Shown in pieces: positions 2,115-9,610 of a stretch of DNA of 10,439 nucleotides; the first letter of the stretch is position 1; every line of letters starts with the position of its first letter. This DNA is from an uncultured Clostridium sp. (GTDB lineage Bacteria > Bacillota > Clostridia > Lachnospirales > Anaerotignaceae), in the NCBI GenBank assembly GCA_947246775.1, contig CAMXTM010000049.1, positions 1 to 10,439 of the forward strand. Reading direction: 5' to 3'. The translations under genes were made by a program, and so were the position numbers. Below the pieces are notes generated by a model. That model was not told where the DNA came from, searched no databases, and was given only the letters and a program-made list of their open reading frames with translations.

Positions 2115-3482
2115 ATGGCAACAATCAAAAAAAGAGGGAAAAGCTATTCTATTCGTGTATCCTGTGGCTATGATATGCAAGGCAAACAAATAGTACATAG
2201 TATAACATGGAAGCCAGAAGCGGGCATGACAGCAAAACAAGAAGAAAAAGAAGTACAAAGGCAAGCGGTGCTATTTGAGGATAGGTGTAAAAAGGGCTTA
2301 TATCTCAATGGTAATATTCGTTTTGCAGATTTTGTTGAAAGATGGTTTGTTGACTATGCTGAAAAGCAGCTAAAAGCAACTACTTTATGTCGTTTAAGGT
2401 ACACATTGGAGCAGGCAAACAAGGCAATCGGTCATATTCCATTGGAAAAGCTGCAACCTATACATATTATGCACTTTTATGACAATCTAGCTGAAAATGG
2501 CATAAAACATACAGCAGCATATAGTATAAAAGTTGACTTAAAAGCCCTACTGAAACAAAGAGGATACACCTACCAACAGTTAGCAGACCTTGCAGGGCTT
2601 CATGTATCCACAATCCATAAAATATGCAATCATAGTACCACATATCCCAAAACAGCACAAAAGGTAGCAACTGCATTAGGATATGATGTAGAAGAACTAT
2701 TCATATATCATGTAGAACAAACAAAACTAAAATCTAGCACCATAAGAACCTATCATGTTGCAATATCAACTGTACTTTCTAGTGCGGTACAGTGGCAAAT
2801 CATTGCTTCAAATCCCTGTGAGCGCCTCAAACCGCCCAAAATAGACACAAAAGAAAGCAAGTACCTTGATGAAAAACAAGCGTTATATATGCTTGATTGT
2901 CTTTCTAATGAGCCTTTACAATATCAGACATTGATTACCTTACTTGTGTATACGGGTATGCGTAGAGGGGAAGCATTTGGGCTAAAGTGGAGCGATATTG
3001 ATTTTGATAATAAAGTGATTACGATACAAAGAACATTGCTTTATACAGCGGATAAAGGGCTTTTTGAGGATACTCCAAAAACTGCTAGCTCAAATCGTAT
3101 GATTAAGGTTGCGCAAGAACCCCTAAAATTGCTCAAAAAACATAAAATAGAACAGACCGCTAGACGCTTGCAATGTGGTGACCAGTGGTATCATAATGAT
3201 TATGTGTTTTCTGCATGGAATGGAAAAGCAATGCACCCATCAAGTGCTGGGAGTTGGTTTAAAAACTTCTTAAAAAGGTATGACTTACCACCTATTACCC
3301 TGCACTCACTTAGGCATACCAATGCAAGCCTTTTAATCGCAAATGGTATCAATATCACCACTGTTTCTAAAAGGCTGGGACACGCTAATACTTCTATTAC
3401 AACTAGCGTCTATGCTCATGCCATTAAGACCGCTGATGAAATAGCTGCCGATACATTGGAAAATATATTTAAAATGAAATAA
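2115..3482 (+). CDS. int: Tyrosine recombinase (integrase) with inserted XRE domain
   Basis: This 455-residue site-specific recombinase inserts and excises the element by strand exchange through a 3'-phosphotyrosine. The N-terminus (about 1-65, MATIKKRGKSYSIRVSCGYD) is the arm-binding AP2-like domain. The SAM-like core-binding domain starts at about 68 (FADFVERWF) and ends at about 240 (SNPCERLKPPK). The catalytic domain has all expected residues: Arg283 (TGMRRGEAFGLKW), Lys322 (PKTASSNR), His397 and Arg400 (LHSLRHT), His423 (RLGHANTSIT) and the nucleophile Tyr433. The oddity is that residues about 140-197 form an XRE/HTH_3-like helix-turn-helix (LKQRGYTYQQLADLAGLHVS, ending ALGYDVEELF). It is inserted before KLKSSTIRTYHVAISTVLSS, so it splits the core-binding domain. 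AAGGAGG lies 8 nt before the ATG. Position next to the repressor at the element edge is typical. The sequence shows no frameshift, so the enzyme is probably active. Confidence 0.93.
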   Translation: MATIKKRGKSYSIRVSCGYDMQGKQIVHSITWKPEAGMTAKQEEKEVQRQAVLFEDRCKKGLYLNGNIRFADFVERWFVDYAEKQLKATTLCRLRYTLEQANKAIGHIPLEKLQPIHIMHFYDNLAENGIKHTAAYSIKVDLKALLKQRGYTYQQLADLAGLHVSTIHKICNHSTTYPKTAQKVATALGYDVEELFIYHVEQTKLKSSTIRTYHVAISTVLSSAVQWQIIASNPCERLKPPKIDTKESKYLDEKQALYMLDCLSNEPLQYQTLITLLVYTGMRRGEAFGLKWSDIDFDNKVITIQRTLLYTADKGLFEDTPKTASSNRMIKVAQEPLKLLKKHKIEQTARRLQCGDQWYHNDYVFSAWNGKAMHPSSAGSWFKNFLKRYDLPPITLHSLRHTNASLLIANGINITTVSKRLGHANTSITTSVYAHAIKTADEIAADTLENIFKMK

Positions 3483-3658
3483 AGAACAAATAAAGAACAA
3501 AATGCCTGTTTTTTGAAAAACGTAAGCCCTGTAAACCTTGATTTTATAGGGCTTTTGTTGCCTGTAGGGCTGCTAGCATTGTTTTCCAAATAAGAGAGTA
3601 AAGCAATGATGACTGAACATAGAGTCAAAAATAAGTATATTTTCTCAAATTTAGTCAT
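3416..3658 (-). CDS. Candidate type I holin-like toxin (Hol-Tox), extended
   Basis: From ATG 3658 the peptide begins MTKFEKIYLFLTLCSVIIAL and goes on LLSYLENN. The short polar start with F-E at positions 4-5, one hydrophobic helix (about 7-24) and L-L-S-Y after it match my recollection of the putative holin-like toxins (Hol-Tox, TxpA/BsrG-like) that sit near integrases and in prophages. These are membrane toxins repressed by antisense RNA. Support is unusually good for such a small gene: a near-consensus promoter at 3751-3723, a leader of about 58 nt, and GGGGTGA 5 nt before the ATG, occluded by a hairpin. It is odd that the frame continues to 80 residues (stop at 3416) and runs antisense into the last 67 bases of int. 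Known members are usually about 30-45 residues, so the tail may be a read-on created at the element junction. I found no convincing antitoxin RNA promoter on the plus strand. Confidence 0.5.
   Translation of the reverse strand: MTKFEKIYLFLTLCSVIIALLSYLENNASSPTGNKSPIKSRFTGLTFFKKQAFCSLFVLYFILNIFSNVSAAISSAVLMA
3480..3501 (+). repeat. 11-bp tandem repeat at the integrase stop
   Basis: TAAAGAACAAA is present twice, head to tail and identical (3480-3490, 3491-3501). The first copy supplies the integrase TAA stop. Element ends and attachment cores often lie just past int, so this may be an integrase-binding or core-flanking repeat. The other element end is outside the window, so the core cannot be confirmed. 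Confidence 0.4.
3524..3558 (+). terminator. Intrinsic terminator of the integrase gene
   Basis: AAGCCCTGTAAA (3524-3535) pairs with TTTATAGGGCTT (3543-3554) as a 12-bp stem with one G-U wobble and a 7-nt loop, followed by TTGTTG. It starts about 40 bases after the integrase stop. The stem also lies within the 3' part of the minus-strand toxin frame. Confidence 0.7.
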
Positions 3659-3663
3659 ATGCC

Positions 3664-3694
3664 TCACCCCCCTTCCTAGTAGAGGGAGGGGGTA
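3664..3694 (-). promoter_or_regulatory. Leader hairpin occluding the toxin ribosome binding site
   Basis: On the minus strand, TACCCCCTCC (3694-3685) can pair with GGAAGGGGGGTGA (3676-3664) with small bulges around a 8-nt loop. This buries the Shine-Dalgarno GGGGTGA. Such sequestration is a known trait of type I toxin mRNAs. Confidence 0.45.
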
Positions 3695-3722
3695 AACCAC
3701 TCCATCATGGCTGCTCGATGTC

Positions 3723-3751
3723 ATTATAGCACAGTATTTTCCACAATTCAA
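3723..3751 (-). promoter_or_regulatory. Strong promoter for the toxin candidate
   Basis: On the minus strand, TTGAAT (3751-3746) and TATAAT (3728-3723) are separated by exactly 17 bp. Transcription would start near 3716. No other minus-strand gene follows, so this promoter is independent evidence that the small frame at 3658 is expressed. Confidence 0.7.
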
Positions 3752-3848
3752 CAAAAAAGACTTTCTACACTTCGACTCAACTCAACTAAAAATCACCTAA
3801 TTGAAAAACAACAAAAAAGAGTAAATAGATACTTTTTGATACTTAGGA

Positions 3849-4040
3849 TATGATATAAAGGAAATAATAAGAGCTGTTTCTAGTTCGTTTTACAACAGTG
3901 AGGTGAACTAGATGTGGTGATAAAACTGTTCCTAATCTGTTTCAAGAGTGAGGTTGATTAGGCGTGGTAGCAACAAGGGCTGTGCCTAGTCTGCTTTATG
4001 GTCGGTAAGGTTGGCTAGGTGTGGTGACAACGACCGAACG
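3849..4040 (+). ncRNA. Three tandem covarying hairpin repeats, putative structured RNA
   Basis: Three diverged units begin at CTGT 3874, 3926 and 3980 (52- and 54-nt periods). Each has CTGT, a left arm, a loop ending GTGAGGT or GTAAGGT, a right arm, then GTGGTRRYAA. The stems are TCTAGTTC/GAACTAGA (3879-3886/3905-3912), CCTAATC/GATTAGG (3931-3937/3956-3962) and CCTAGTC/GGCTAGG (3985-3991/4013-4019). Three base pairs differ by compensatory changes (U-A to C-G twice, G-C to A-U once), so pairing is selected. Two units allow a pseudoknot: AACAGT 3894-3899 with ACTGTT 3925-3930, and GGTCG 4000-4004 with CGACC 4031-4035. An extended -10 (TGATATAAA, 3851-3859) just upstream may start transcription on the plus strand; the -35 is poor. 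Strand is inferred. I recognise no known RNA class. From 3752 to 3848 I see nothing assignable. Confidence 0.5.
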
Positions 4041-4114
4041 AAACCATTGGAATTAAGATGATATAGTCGTTCTAAAATAAGCGTTTCATAATTGTTCCAA
4101 TCAAAAAAAGAAAA

Positions 4115-4156
4115 ATGTTAACATGATGTACACAGAAATTTAAAAAATGTTGACAT
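4115..4156. repeat. Pair of ATGTTRACAT palindromes
   Basis: ATGTTAACAT (4115-4124) is a perfect 10-bp palindrome, and ATGTTGACAT (4147-4156) is the same with one change. The copies are 32 bp (about three helical turns) apart and both are preceded by an A-run. They could be operator half-sites, but no promoter between or beside them is convincing. An ATTGGAA/TTCCAAT inverted repeat (4046-4052/4095-4101) lies just upstream. Confidence 0.3.
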
Positions 4157-4197
4157 TTTTGAATAAAGTAAAGGAAAGGAAAGAACAGAATATATAT

Positions 4198-4233
4198 GCT
4201 CATTTGACGAAATGAGCGTGTGTGTATTTTTTT
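4198..4233 (+). terminator. Candidate terminator downstream of the RNA repeats
   Basis: GCTCATTT (4198-4205) pairs perfectly with AAATGAGC (4210-4217) around a GACG loop. Seven T residues follow at 4227-4233 after a short GTGTGTGTA. The gap before the T-run makes it an atypical terminator, but it would end a rightward transcript from the repeat array. Confidence 0.4.
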
Positions 4234-4280
4234 GATAAAAAAAACAGAAAAGCTATACCCCAAAGTAAAGTATAGCTTTT
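4233..4280 (-). terminator. Terminator of pepF (possibly bidirectional)
   Basis: AAAAGCTATAC-type arms (4248-4258 and 4270-4280) form an 11-bp stem with an 11-nt loop. Read on the minus strand, it is followed by CTG and a run of eight T residues, starting 13 bases after the pepF stop. On the plus strand, TTTT then GTTTG follows, so it may also stop rightward transcripts. Confidence 0.8.
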
Positions 4281-4293
4281 GTTTGTTGTGTGA

Positions 4294-6087
4294 TTATGAT
4301 AATTGTTCTAATTGGTCAAGTAAATCCTCGAATACAGCCATAGCGTTTTCGATAGGAGTAGAGCTTGTCATATCCACACCAGCGCCTTTGAGTAAATCAA
4401 TGGAGTATTCGCTGTTGCCTTTTGAGAGAAAATCTAAATAGCGGTCAATAGCCGGCTGACCCTCTTGCGTAATTTTTTGAGATAAGGCAATTGCTGCGCT
4501 GTAACCTGTAGCATATTGATAGACATAAAAGGCGTTGTAGAAGTGAGGGATTCTAGCCCACTCTATGGCAATTTCCTTGTCTATAATGATGTCATCACCA
4601 AAATATTTTTTGTTGAGGTCGTAGTAGATTTCGCTCATGTTTTCGCAGGTAAGAGGTTCGCCTTTTTCTGCCATGTCGTGAGTGATTTTTTCAAACTCAG
4701 CAAACATCGTTTGACGGAAAAGCGTACCACGAAATTGTTCTAAAAAGTAGTTAATGAGATATTTTTTTGTAGTTGTGTCGTTTGTATTTTGCAATAAGTA
4801 GTGCATAAGGAGAGCTTCATTGCAGGTAGAGGCAACTTCTGCGACAAATATTTTGTGACCACTGTAGAGGTAGGGTTGTTTTTGCCAAGTAAAGTAACTG
4901 TGCAAAGCGTGTCCCATTTCGTGAGCGAGGGTAAACATACTGTTGATGTTGTCGTTGTGGTTCAGTAGCACATAAGGGTGAACACCGTAAACGCCCCAAG
5001 AGTAAGCACCACTTCTTTTACCCTCGTTTTCGTAAACATCAATCCAACCGCTGTCAAGACCTTTTTGGAGTGCATCACTGTAGGACTTGCCTAATATTTG
5101 GAGAGCTTGAGATACAGTTTGTTTTGCCTCTGTATAAGGGATTTTTTTGTCAGCATCAGGCACAAGAGGAACATATAAATCGTACATATGGAGTTCGTCT
5201 ACACCAAGAAGTTTTTTGCGTAAAGCAATGTAACGGTGCATAAGAGGTAAAAATTGGTGTACCGTTTGGATTAAATTGTCGTAGACGGAAAGAGGGATTT
5301 TGTCGTCATCTAGTGCCGCAGCAAGGGAGCTTGGATATTTTCTAGCTTTTGCAAAAAAGACGTCTCCTTTAACACTGGCAGAATAAGTAGCAGCGATGGT
5401 ATTTTTTTGTTTTAAGTAAGTGTTGTAGAGGGCAAAAAAAGCCTCTTTTCTGACACGGCGGTCGCTGTTTTCTAAGAAAGAAGTGTAACGACCTTTTGTG
5501 AGTTCAACTTGTTCGCCTTTTTCGTTGGTTATGCTGGGAAATTTGATGTCTGCATCGTTAAGCATGGTAAAAATAGTTTGAGGAGCGCCAGCGATTTCGC
5601 TTGTTTGGGCAAGAAACTGTTCTTGTTCAGCAGAAAGCGTGTGTTGTTTTTGGCGAAGTATGTTGTCAAAAAAGTGTTCATATGTTTGAAAATCTGGTAA
5701 TTGTCTTCTGAAATCAGAAAGTGTTTGTTCTGGTATGCTAAGGATTTCAGGCACAATAAAAGCAGCGGCAGTGGAATATTGAATCATCAGTAGCTCTGCA
5801 CGAGAAGAAAGTTGTTGATATGTTGTGTTGGTGCTGTCTTCGTGGAAACGCATAAAAGCATAAACATAGAGTTTTTCTATGATGTTGCTAGTTTGAAAGC
5901 TCTGATTGAGACAGTCAAGTAATGTTTGTGCAGATGTACTAATTTTACCTGAAAAAGAGCTTAAAAGTTGAATAGAATTTTGAGAAATGGAAAAATCATT
6001 TTCCCATTTGTCTAAGTCGCTGTAAATATCTTCTAAAAGCCAAGCATAAGTTGAATCAATTTCCGTTCTTTTGGGTAATTTGTCCAT
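4294..6087 (-). CDS. pepF: Oligoendopeptidase F, M3 family metallopeptidase
   Basis: This 597-residue cytoplasmic zinc peptidase cuts short peptides and is close to the usual PepF length of about 600. It opens with LPKRTEIDSTYAWLLEDIYS, the typical PepF N-terminus, followed by the helical N-terminal domain. The zinc site is HEMGH at His389-Glu390-His393 (AHEMGHALHSYF), with Glu417 in FVAEVASTCNEALL as the third ligand. A conserved GAYSWGVYGVHPYVLLNH segment lies just before it (about 360-377). The C-terminus HFYNAFYVYQYATGYSAA is also characteristic. There is no signal peptide. The ATG is 7 nt after AAGGAAG. It stands alone, divergent from glgA, with its own promoter and a strong terminator, so it is monocistronic. 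Its likely role is general peptide turnover. It marks the return to host chromosome next to the mobile element. Confidence 0.96.
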   Translation of the reverse strand: MDKLPKRTEIDSTYAWLLEDIYSDLDKWENDFSISQNSIQLLSSFSGKISTSAQTLLDCLNQSFQTSNIIEKLYVYAFMRFHEDSTNTTYQQLSSRAELLMIQYSTAAAFIVPEILSIPEQTLSDFRRQLPDFQTYEHFFDNILRQKQHTLSAEQEQFLAQTSEIAGAPQTIFTMLNDADIKFPSITNEKGEQVELTKGRYTSFLENSDRRVRKEAFFALYNTYLKQKNTIAATYSASVKGDVFFAKARKYPSSLAAALDDDKIPLSVYDNLIQTVHQFLPLMHRYIALRKKLLGVDELHMYDLYVPLVPDADKKIPYTEAKQTVSQALQILGKSYSDALQKGLDSGWIDVYENEGKRSGAYSWGVYGVHPYVLLNHNDNINSMFTLAHEMGHALHSYFTWQKQPYLYSGHKIFVAEVASTCNEALLMHYLLQNTNDTTTKKYLINYFLEQFRGTLFRQTMFAEFEKITHDMAEKGEPLTCENMSEIYYDLNKKYFGDDIIIDKEIAIEWARIPHFYNAFYVYQYATGYSAAIALSQKITQEGQPAIDRYLDFLSKGNSEYSIDLLKGAGVDMTSSTPIENAMAVFEDLLDQLEQLS

Positions 6088-7773: not shown

Positions 7774-7813
7774 ACAAGGGGTTGAACAGTTATGTTCGCC
7801 CTTTTGTTTTGTT
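7774..7813 (+). terminator. Intrinsic terminator of glgA
   Basis: ACAAGGGGTTGAAC (7774-7787) pairs with GTTCGCCCTTTTGT (7794-7807), with wobble pairs and one mismatch, around a 6-nt loop. It is followed by TTTGTTT and starts 11 bases after the glgA stop. It separates glgA from the next operon. Confidence 0.75.
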
Positions 7814-7832
7814 TAAAAATAAAAAAATAGGT

Positions 7833-7860
7833 TTGCAATTTTATAAAAATAGGTTATGAT
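7833..7860 (+). promoter_or_regulatory. Promoter of the DUF5711-cvpA operon
   Basis: TTGCAA (7833-7838) and TATGAT (7855-7860) are 16 bp apart, right after the glgA terminator. The leader to the TTG start at 7937 is about 70 nt. Confidence 0.6.
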
Positions 7861-7936
7861 TGATTGAGATGTAATAAAAGTAAGTATTATTTTTTTTGTA
7901 AGGTCTAGCAGGTTTTTAGAAAAGGAGCAATTACAT

Positions 7937-9610
7937 TTGGAACAGGAAAAGAGAATAGAAAATAGAAGAAAAGGAAGCAAAAAATATATTATCATGCTGT
8001 TTTTGCTTGTTTTAGTGGTAGGAGGAGGTTGTGGGTTGTATTATGTTGATACCTTTTATGGGCAAGGCAAAATCAATACGATACTTTCTTCTTTGCAGCA
8101 GGATAAAAACACAACAGAGGATACAGAAAATGTAGAAGAGTCCCAAATTCCAGAGGAACAGCAGGTAACAGATAAAAATAGTATAACATTATCTTCAGGT
8201 GGCACATTATTTTTGACAAAGGGCAAAAAGTTTTTGATGTGTACGAAAGATGGCGCAAGATATATGAATGGTATGGGTGACCAAAAATGGAATGATACTT
8301 TTACGATGACAGCGCCAGAAATGATAGAGGAGGGCAATTACTATGCCATAGGCGATTTGTCAGGAAAAAGTGTCAAGGTGTATAATGATACAGGCTTGCT
8401 TTATTCTGTGCAGCATACAGGGAATGTATTGTATTTTGCCTTAAATAGAAATGGTTATTTAGGTGTCATTACAAAAGAGAAAGAGATGTATACGGCTATG
8501 GTTTATGATAGCGCAGGTACACAGTTAACAGGTAGACAAGAGGGACAAAAGGGAATTTTTCCGTTGTCTATAGATGTTTCCGATGATAATAGAGTATTTG
8601 TCATCAGTTATTTGGATACCACAGATGTAGAACCAGTAGGTAAAGTCAACTTTTATTATGTCAATGAATCTGATGGTAAAAACTATAGTGAAAGTATGTT
8701 TTCTGCAATAATAAAAGAAAATGAAATCATACCGAAAGTATTTTATTTAGATAATGGCAGTTTAATTGCTGCGTCAGATAGAGGATTGTATGGTATGAGT
8801 GCGAATGGAGAGCAGCGTTGGGAAATTGTGCTGACAAACCATATTGATTATATTGGTTTAGAAAAGAAAAAGTATATTGTACTTGCTTATGGTACTGCAA
8901 TTTCTGGACAAAATAGTAAAGCAGTAGGTAATGTTAGCTGGATAAATGGAGATGGCAAAGAAATAGCGAATTTCCAACCAAGAGATGCGGTCACTTATCT
9001 AAATTGTGGTAATACAGGTACAGTGATAGGCTGTAATAAGACATACTATGGCTTTAAAATAGGGGGAAGACCTTTTTGGGAATATACGGCGACAAGAGAT
9101 ATGTCAGATGTGATTTTGATGGAAAATGTCAATAATGTGTTGTTTGTCACAAGTGATAGTGCAATGATATTAAATATGGATAGAGTCAGCCAAGACACTA
9201 CCGTAAAAGAACATAAACAAGGTGATAGAAATACAGAAAGAATTATTAAAAAGCAAACAGAAGATGACCAACAGGGAGAAGACAATAAAGAGGATAAAGA
9301 TACCCAACAACAAGATAATCAAAATACAGAGCAACAAGATAATCAAAATCAAGACGATACACAAAATAGTGAAAACAATATAGAAAATACAGAAAAAGAC
9401 CAAGAAGAACAAAATCAAGACAAAAAAGACCAAAATGATACAAAAACGACAGAAAAGGAACAAAAAAATGATAAAAAAGAAGAAAAAGAGGAGCAAAATG
9501 GAAGTGAACCAAGTACAGAAAATCAAAAAAATACAGAAGATACAGAAAGTGGAGAAAGTGGAGAAAATAGCGAAGATGAAGTAAAACAAAATAGTAGAGG
9601 TAGAAGGTAG
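7937..9610 (+). CDS. DUF5711-like membrane-anchored beta-propeller protein
   Basis: This 557-residue protein has a basic N-terminus (EKRIENRRKGSKK) and then one membrane helix at about 17-37 (YIIMLFLLVLVVGGGCGLYY). An acidic linker (about 55-80) follows, and then a large outer domain at about 82-415. This domain is built of repeated beta-strand units such as AIGDLSGKSVKVYNDTGLLY and LIAASDRGLYGMSANGEQRW. The repeated G/D-x-x-G-x-x-x-W/Y patterns suggest a PQQ/WD40-like propeller, as in the DUF5711 proteins of clostridia that I recall being found beside CvpA. The last about 135 residues (420-557) are low-complexity, rich in Gln, Asn, Asp, Glu, Lys and Thr, and probably disordered. TTG 7937 is the start, with AAAAGGAG 10 nt upstream. 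It is the first gene of an operon with the CvpA protein 77 bases downstream. The function is unknown; an envelope-associated sensor or scaffold is only a guess. Confidence 0.75.
   Translation: MEQEKRIENRRKGSKKYIIMLFLLVLVVGGGCGLYYVDTFYGQGKINTILSSLQQDKNTTEDTENVEESQIPEEQQVTDKNSITLSSGGTLFLTKGKKFLMCTKDGARYMNGMGDQKWNDTFTMTAPEMIEEGNYYAIGDLSGKSVKVYNDTGLLYSVQHTGNVLYFALNRNGYLGVITKEKEMYTAMVYDSAGTQLTGRQEGQKGIFPLSIDVSDDNRVFVISYLDTTDVEPVGKVNFYYVNESDGKNYSESMFSAIIKENEIIPKVFYLDNGSLIAASDRGLYGMSANGEQRWEIVLTNHIDYIGLEKKKYIVLAYGTAISGQNSKAVGNVSWINGDGKEIANFQPRDAVTYLNCGNTGTVIGCNKTYYGFKIGGRPFWEYTATRDMSDVILMENVNNVLFVTSDSAMILNMDRVSQDTTVKEHKQGDRNTERIIKKQTEDDQQGEDNKEDKDTQQQDNQNTEQQDNQNQDDTQNSENNIENTEKDQEEQNQDKKDQNDTKTTEKEQKNDKKEEKEEQNGSEPSTENQKNTEDTESGESGENSEDEVKQNSRGRR
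9308..9349 (+). repeat. 24-bp in-frame tandem repeat in the low-complexity tail
   Basis: CAACAAGATAATCAAAAT occurs at 9308-9325 and 9332-9349 with a 24-bp period, encoding QQDNQNTE then QQDNQNQD. It suggests that the charged tail grows and shrinks by slippage or unequal recombination. The coding strand of 9230-9600 is strongly A-rich. Confidence 0.6.

Follow-up and report, generated by a model that had tools for sequence, protein, structure and literature searches.

The window, as we call the whole 10,439-nucleotide stretch of DNA analysed here, contains a tandem array of hairpins that belongs to an undescribed RNA family without an Rfam match. In this gut bacterium and two relatives, such arrays lie in the chromosome outside any recognized prophage; they also occur in phages, where they lead into a replication-initiation gene, and a phage origin of the chromosomal element that includes the array is well supported.

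As an earlier note on this DNA had claimed, the array consists of three tandem units; they lie on the + strand within positions 3870–4035 and start at 3874, 3926 and 3980 (Table 1). No open reading frame of at least 50 amino acids overlaps these positions on either strand, again as claimed, and the gene convergent with the array encodes oligopeptidase F (pepF). The units are alike in structure more than in sequence, and repeat finders did not report the three as a family. A cmscan of the window against Rfam 15 (4,227 families, up to an E-value of 5) returned no match at the gathering score, which bears out the suggestion of an undescribed RNA; the sole hit overlapping the array, SpR20, falls on the minus strand (3958–3987) and scores 18.2 bits where 45 are required. 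A promoter-like site at 3826–3854 overlaps the GATACTTTTT-type block but is by itself no better than chance (3 found, 2.5 expected). Candidate terminators had been proposed 3′ of the array on the plus strand, and a terminator-like site lies there at 4190–4225; sites of this kind exceed expectation (3 found versus 0.4). The DNA just 3′ of the array (4116–4225) resembles the likely phage origin discussed below, and three of the four TGTNNACA sites in the whole window are clustered there. Upstream, positions 2115–3482 encode a tyrosine integrase with a Cro/C1-type helix-turn-helix (residues 142–198) between its SAM-like and catalytic parts; among the five chromosomal copies, in the stretches read, only the window's adjoins an integrase gene. 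Elsewhere in the window, low-complexity tandem repeats (9300–9498) lie inside a 557-aa open reading frame (7937–9610).

Table 1. Features of the array and its surroundings in the window.
Feature	Positions	Strand	Remarks
GATACTTTTT-type block, promoter region	3828–3844	+	Common to other chromosomal copies and phages
Unit 1 hairpin	3874–3917	+	Folding z −3.68
Unit 2 hairpin	3926–3967	+	Folding z −1.09
Unit 3 hairpin	3980–4024	+	Folding z −2.48
Three TGTNNACA sites (4116, 4127, 4148)	4116–4155	+	Resemble repeats within the phage initiator gene
AAAGTAAAGGAAAGGAAAG repeats	4165–4183	+	Match the AAAGTAAAG stretch of the phage initiator gene
Hairpin and T-run	4190–4232	+	Terminator-like (site 4190–4225); the phage counterpart hairpin lies within coding sequence

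The genus sample comprised five genomes, G000 to G004, of which G000 (78% complete) holds the window and G001 is Clostridium sp. MD294, strain ASF356 (NZ_CP097810.1). Five chromosomal arrays were found at two sites in three of these genomes (G000, G001 and G002, three host species), with true hits at 51.7 bits or more and the next best at 20.1 bits. Beside pepF lie the window's three units, six units in G001 (locus L027) and two in G002 (L029). The second site is the interval between serS and galK, identified by Pfam matches of the G002 genes (seryl-tRNA synthetase and galactokinase) and, in G000, by likeness to them; it holds three units in G000 (L002), 83% identical to the window's over 221 bases, and one good unit in G002 (L028), where the remainder of the copy looks decayed. 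The corresponding site in G001 is empty, the element having been lost or never present. The G002 copy lies between two similar terminators (L028 5930–6480); G001 lacks the element and has only one terminator, which suggests either an insertion or the deletion of DNA between repeats. The G000 copy has a galactokinase gene on one side and, directly upstream of the array on the other, a gene on the minus strand (L002 1753–2340) with a DUF4291 domain (1.5e-59); the stretches of G001 and G002 that were read show no DUF4291 gene here. In G003 and G004, a model search of the genomes found no array at E ≤ 0.001; no array lies in the DNA beside pepF in G003, and the G004 contig stops shortly after that gene. 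The phage loci are the ASF356 prophage (L003, L005 and L025; five units), a metagenome contig (L004; five units), its variant (L026; three units) and L033 (four units), a sample of three related lineages. The earlier note had named homologous arrays with covarying stems in other genomes as the finding that would support its claim, and such arrays are what the search recovered.

An alignment of 21 units from eight loci reveals a single consensus fold. The alignment takes all units of the window, L002 and L029, one found in L028, and part of the units of L003 (3 of 5), L004 (4 of 5), L027 (3 of 6) and L033 (2 of 4). Each unit consists of a CTRT/GTGG outer helix, a 7-bp core stem and an inner helix in which GTTTYA pairs with TGAGGT. 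The conserved blocks that had been taken as single-stranded are thus mostly paired, CTGT with GTGG and GTTTYA with TGAGGT, making each unit one long hairpin. Pairing is kept in 345 of 357 cells (96.6%) and in all 147 cells of the core stem, and both sides have changed in 6 of the 17 pairs, so that the covariation is confirmed and is wider than first described. When the partner strand was slid by 1–3 columns, the paired cells fell to 34.7–44.4%. None of 500 shuffles reached the observed values for cells paired, cells with double changes or covariation score, and seven reached the number of pairs with double changes; 85 reached the number of further pair types, and this last measure therefore gives no support. 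Because 140 of the 345 kept pairs are G–U, which would be A–C on the other strand, the structured molecule is the plus-strand RNA. RNAalifold, unaided, arrived at nearly the same structure, and the units that were folded alone all had negative z-scores (14 of 14, −0.20 to −4.51).

Covariance models recovered units beyond those on which they were built. Model R1, made from 11 type 1 units of the window, L002 and L003 (types are defined below), found units outside its training set in L027 (6 of 6), L004 (5 of 5) and both G002 loci (one each). With default filters it gave 18 matches and missed window unit 1, L002 unit 2 and unit 4 of L003/L005, all of them its own training sequences or copies of these; another search with R1 recovered all of them. 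A second model, R2, recovered each of the 37 units present in the loci it was given.

Pseudoknots, by comparison, are not a general feature. The earlier note had given units 1 and 3 of the window a downstream partner for a loop segment and unit 2 none. This ranking holds up weakly when tails are shuffled (p = 0.048, 0.566 and 0.082 for units 1, 2 and 3), but it does not generalize: a loop–tail helix reached p ≤ 0.05 in 4 of 27 units, three of them in L027, and the other 23 did no better than shuffled tails at that level. In L027, 8-bp loop–tail helices occur in four of the five distinct units, three at p ≤ 0.05, and the pseudoknots of this locus may be real.

In the phages, the arrays lie directly 5′ of one gene, and the last unit stops just before its likely ribosome-binding site. 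The encoded protein contains a Lin1244_N domain, and PHROG replication initiation proteins match it from end to end (1.5e-47). Nearby genes encode a DnaB-like helicase, a phage-type transcriptional regulator and an integrase, and in L004 also a small terminase subunit. The earlier note had seen no matching gene next to the array, which is correct for the window; in the phages, such a neighbor exists in the replication-initiation gene, and overall the earlier interpretation is partly supported. A TGTCGAC site precedes unit 1 immediately in all four phage contigs. L004 and L026 agree at 1,844 of 1,845 bases before the array and at 3,895 of 3,901 after it, yet the former carries five units (7796–8074) and the latter three (3892–4056); the number of units thus changes fast. 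The N-terminus of the initiator was considered as a candidate for the type-specific partner; among the three proteins available, it does not clearly correlate with hairpin type. L004 also encodes, on the minus strand (2744–4687), a 647-aa protein that weakly matches NACHT (9.3e-06, slightly below the Pfam cut-off), and its ASF356 prophage version is 64.7% identical, the lowest value among the genes compared.

The chromosomal copies join the phage leader to a stretch that in the phages lies within the gene. Their order is promoter-region block, array, TGTNNACA sites, AAAGTAAAG repeats and hairpin. The GATACTTTTT block is found upstream of unit 1 in all five chromosomal loci and all four phage contigs, and the phage counterpart of the TGTNNACA/AAAGTAAAG/hairpin stretch lies inside the initiator gene, ~400 bp past its start. 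In all five chromosomal copies the initiator gene is absent between the leader and the in-gene-like stretch, and a copy therefore amounts to the cis-acting parts of the replication module only. When the chromosomal downstream DNA was aligned with three initiator genes, 14 of 15 pairs beat the best of 200 dinucleotide shuffles; the alignment of L002 with L003 did not rise above its 200 shuffles. Outside the genus, the pattern AATGTNNACA...AAAGTAAAG occurs four times (in 3 of 35 genomes); its ten occurrences in G000, G001 and G002 all lie at array loci. Because a reversed control pattern also occurs, four times in the same three genomes and four times elsewhere, the pattern alone is no proof. 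TGTCGAC is missing before unit 1 in all five chromosomal copies, which would uncouple them from a phage regulator. By its position inside the initiator gene, its repeats and analogy, the iteron stretch is probably the phage origin.

The chromosomal parts may have been kept by selection. Between G000 and G001, identity in the iteron–hairpin stretch is 77.7% at aligned positions and 59.7% when gaps are included, compared with 79.0% for pepF and 75.9% for the spacer (31.3% with gaps); conservation of the element is no higher than that of pepF.

The hairpins fall into two types (support 94.4/93). Type 1 comprises the window, L002, L003, L004, L026 and L028, and type 2 comprises L027, L029 and L033. 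Over the 600 bases that precede the array, phages L004 and L033 are 94.0% identical, and the two parts of the gene reach 85.0% and 92.7%, but their hairpins are only 65% identical, whereas those of L003 and L004, which share a type, are 85% identical (aligned units). A similar break occurs on the pepF side of G001 and G002, where the permease (86.9%), spacer (92.2%) and pepF (90.8%) are alike and the hairpins only 76% identical. The G002 hairpins at this site share 91% identity with the phage L033 hairpins, and in the tree one of the G002 units pairs with an L033 unit (89.4/90, from ~50 columns only). Because the hairpins diverge while their flanks stay alike, the array changes as a cassette, in phages and in one chromosome. 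The two copies of G000 are paralogous, their units 2 and 3 pairing up in the tree. Strain ASF356 carries type 2 in its chromosome and type 1 in its prophage; as one lysogen, it fits type-specific exclusion.

Outside the genus, we found no arrays in samples of the order (392 genomes) and the class (391 genomes). R2 matched 3 of the 392 genomes, in 1 of 174 genera, and a single genome of the class sample, G000, which belongs to both of these overlapping samples. DNA searches of a phage collection with the L027 element and the L003 leader, and of a plasmid collection with the L003 leader only, returned nothing. Genes like the initiator were located at 24 loci, 23 of them outside the genus and carrying more distant relatives; R2 had no match at any of these 23 at E ≤ 1, although a locus whose match is confined to the later part of the gene may stop short of the leader. 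The 450 bases upstream of the gene, read at 11 loci, hold no such array; a twelfth, L054, starts at a contig end and has no upstream DNA, which leaves 11 of 12 informative.

Reasoning in part by analogy, we tentatively propose, as the likeliest of the explanations considered, that the array is part of a domesticated phage leader-plus-origin module that acts as a decoy against related phages. The element would be a free-standing, noncoding segment of ~400 bp (window positions 3826–4232) taken from a phage replication module and would be transcribed into an RNA of ~370 nt. Its hairpin RNA would bind whatever factor acts on the phage leader, its iterons would bind the phage initiator, and replication of related phages would be weakened, as in phage-encoded resistance (PER), with the hairpin type determining which phages are affected. 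We infer this function from the covarying plus-strand hairpins, the position of the phage array 5′ of the initiator gene, the sequence shared between chromosome and phage, the recurrence of the same cis-acting parts without the initiator in five copies, which occupy two sites in three species and all lack TGTCGAC, the swapping of hairpin types, the type split in ASF356 and the PER precedent. Against it weigh the L002/L003 alignment, the decayed G002 copy, the empty G001 site, the lack of arrays in G003 and G004, a conservation no higher than that of pepF, and a sample of three phage lineages and three host species in which the type pattern comes from one lysogen. A bolder form of the proposal, which we consider unlikely, is that the element would be a protein-free, type-specific immunity locus, which phages would escape by exchanging cassettes and whose types hosts would acquire, recording the phages met.

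By analogy, PER is the closest precedent. The origins of TP901-1 and Tuc2009 lie inside their initiator genes and confer resistance in trans (PMC8965321), and a 302-bp noncoding origin of Sfi21 does likewise, with a similar element reported in a cryptic prophage (PMC6356513). As described there, PER shares with our element an origin within the initiator gene and a noncoding or in-gene piece of the replication module, with presumed initiator-site repeats, that is present apart from the phage; derivation from a phage replication module is also what we found here. PER was shown with cloned copies and reported in a cryptic prophage, whereas here the element is free-standing and intergenic, occupies sites shared by several species and includes a tandem structured RNA array, and resistance would be its presumed effect.

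The chromosomal copies might instead be prophage relics that have no present function, the hairpins mattering only as a cis-acting leader in phages. Such an origin would account for the degenerate G002 units, the empty G001 site, the integrase gene upstream in the window and the paired terminators around the G002 serS–galK copy, which contrast with the single one in G001 as they would after an insertion. Relics would not be expected, however, to keep the same set of parts in five copies with core stems intact in every aligned chromosomal unit, to lack any other phage gene beside them (in the stretches read, the window's integrase excepted) or to have their hairpins swapped for another type at an otherwise orthologous place, and we regard this explanation as rather unlikely.

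A second alternative draws on the CI RNA immunity of phage P4, in which a structured RNA lies in the leader of the phage replication operon. By this mechanism, units released from the array would serve in trans as small RNAs, targeting the leader of a superinfecting phage as it is being transcribed and shutting off the transcription or translation of its initiator gene. The arrays likewise belong to a replication operon's leader, copies in the same sense exist elsewhere and the two sequence types resemble immunity groups. They differ from the P4 RNA in forming a tandem array and in having chromosomal copies without the operon; moreover, the only known complementary target is the hairpins' own arms, and the core stem is nearly identical between the two types, making a P4-like mode of action improbable.

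The hairpins could also be antitoxin-like or anti-defense RNAs that neutralize an RNA-cutting protein by binding to it, as in type III toxin–antitoxin and AbiF systems. The tandem structured units of 52–58 nt recall the type III antitoxins (ToxI, CptI and TenpI) and AbiF RNA, and phages could carry such units as a mimic, as is the case for a phage mimic of ToxI. Here, however, the arrays are linked to a replication initiator gene, their units form single long hairpins without a pseudoknot (the frequency of loop–tail helices given above sets them apart from the pseudoknotted type III repeats), and no toxin or AbiF gene adjoins any array read. The type III toxin family PF13958 (ToxN) is present in two of the five genomes, G002 and G004, and absent from G000 and G001, which bear two arrays each; Abi_2 (PF07751) is found in none of the five, and RF03085 is absent among the Rfam hits in the window. 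The ToxN-type genes of G002 and G004 (L098 and L099) have their own, different upstream sequence, in which R2 found no match. An antitoxin-like role is accordingly very improbable. We give equally little credence to a noncoding satellite that a helper phage's initiator would replicate, allowing it to persist or spread: it would explain the cis-acting parts and the paralogous G000 copies, but copies occur at only two places, shared between species.

Our literature search, outside which most subscription journals lay, turned up neither a natural chromosomal phage-origin decoy nor a tandem RNA of this kind. The hairpins define a structured RNA family that is new, shows strong covariation and has a specific setting, in the leader of the replication-initiation gene of phages. 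Since hairpin types are exchanged between phages and chromosomes, the proposed decoy predicts that the types of a chromosome and of its resident phage differ, and ASF356, the single lysogen at hand, fits this expectation. If the decoy reading is true, the element would provide a naturally occurring equivalent of the PER effect, free-standing in the chromosome.
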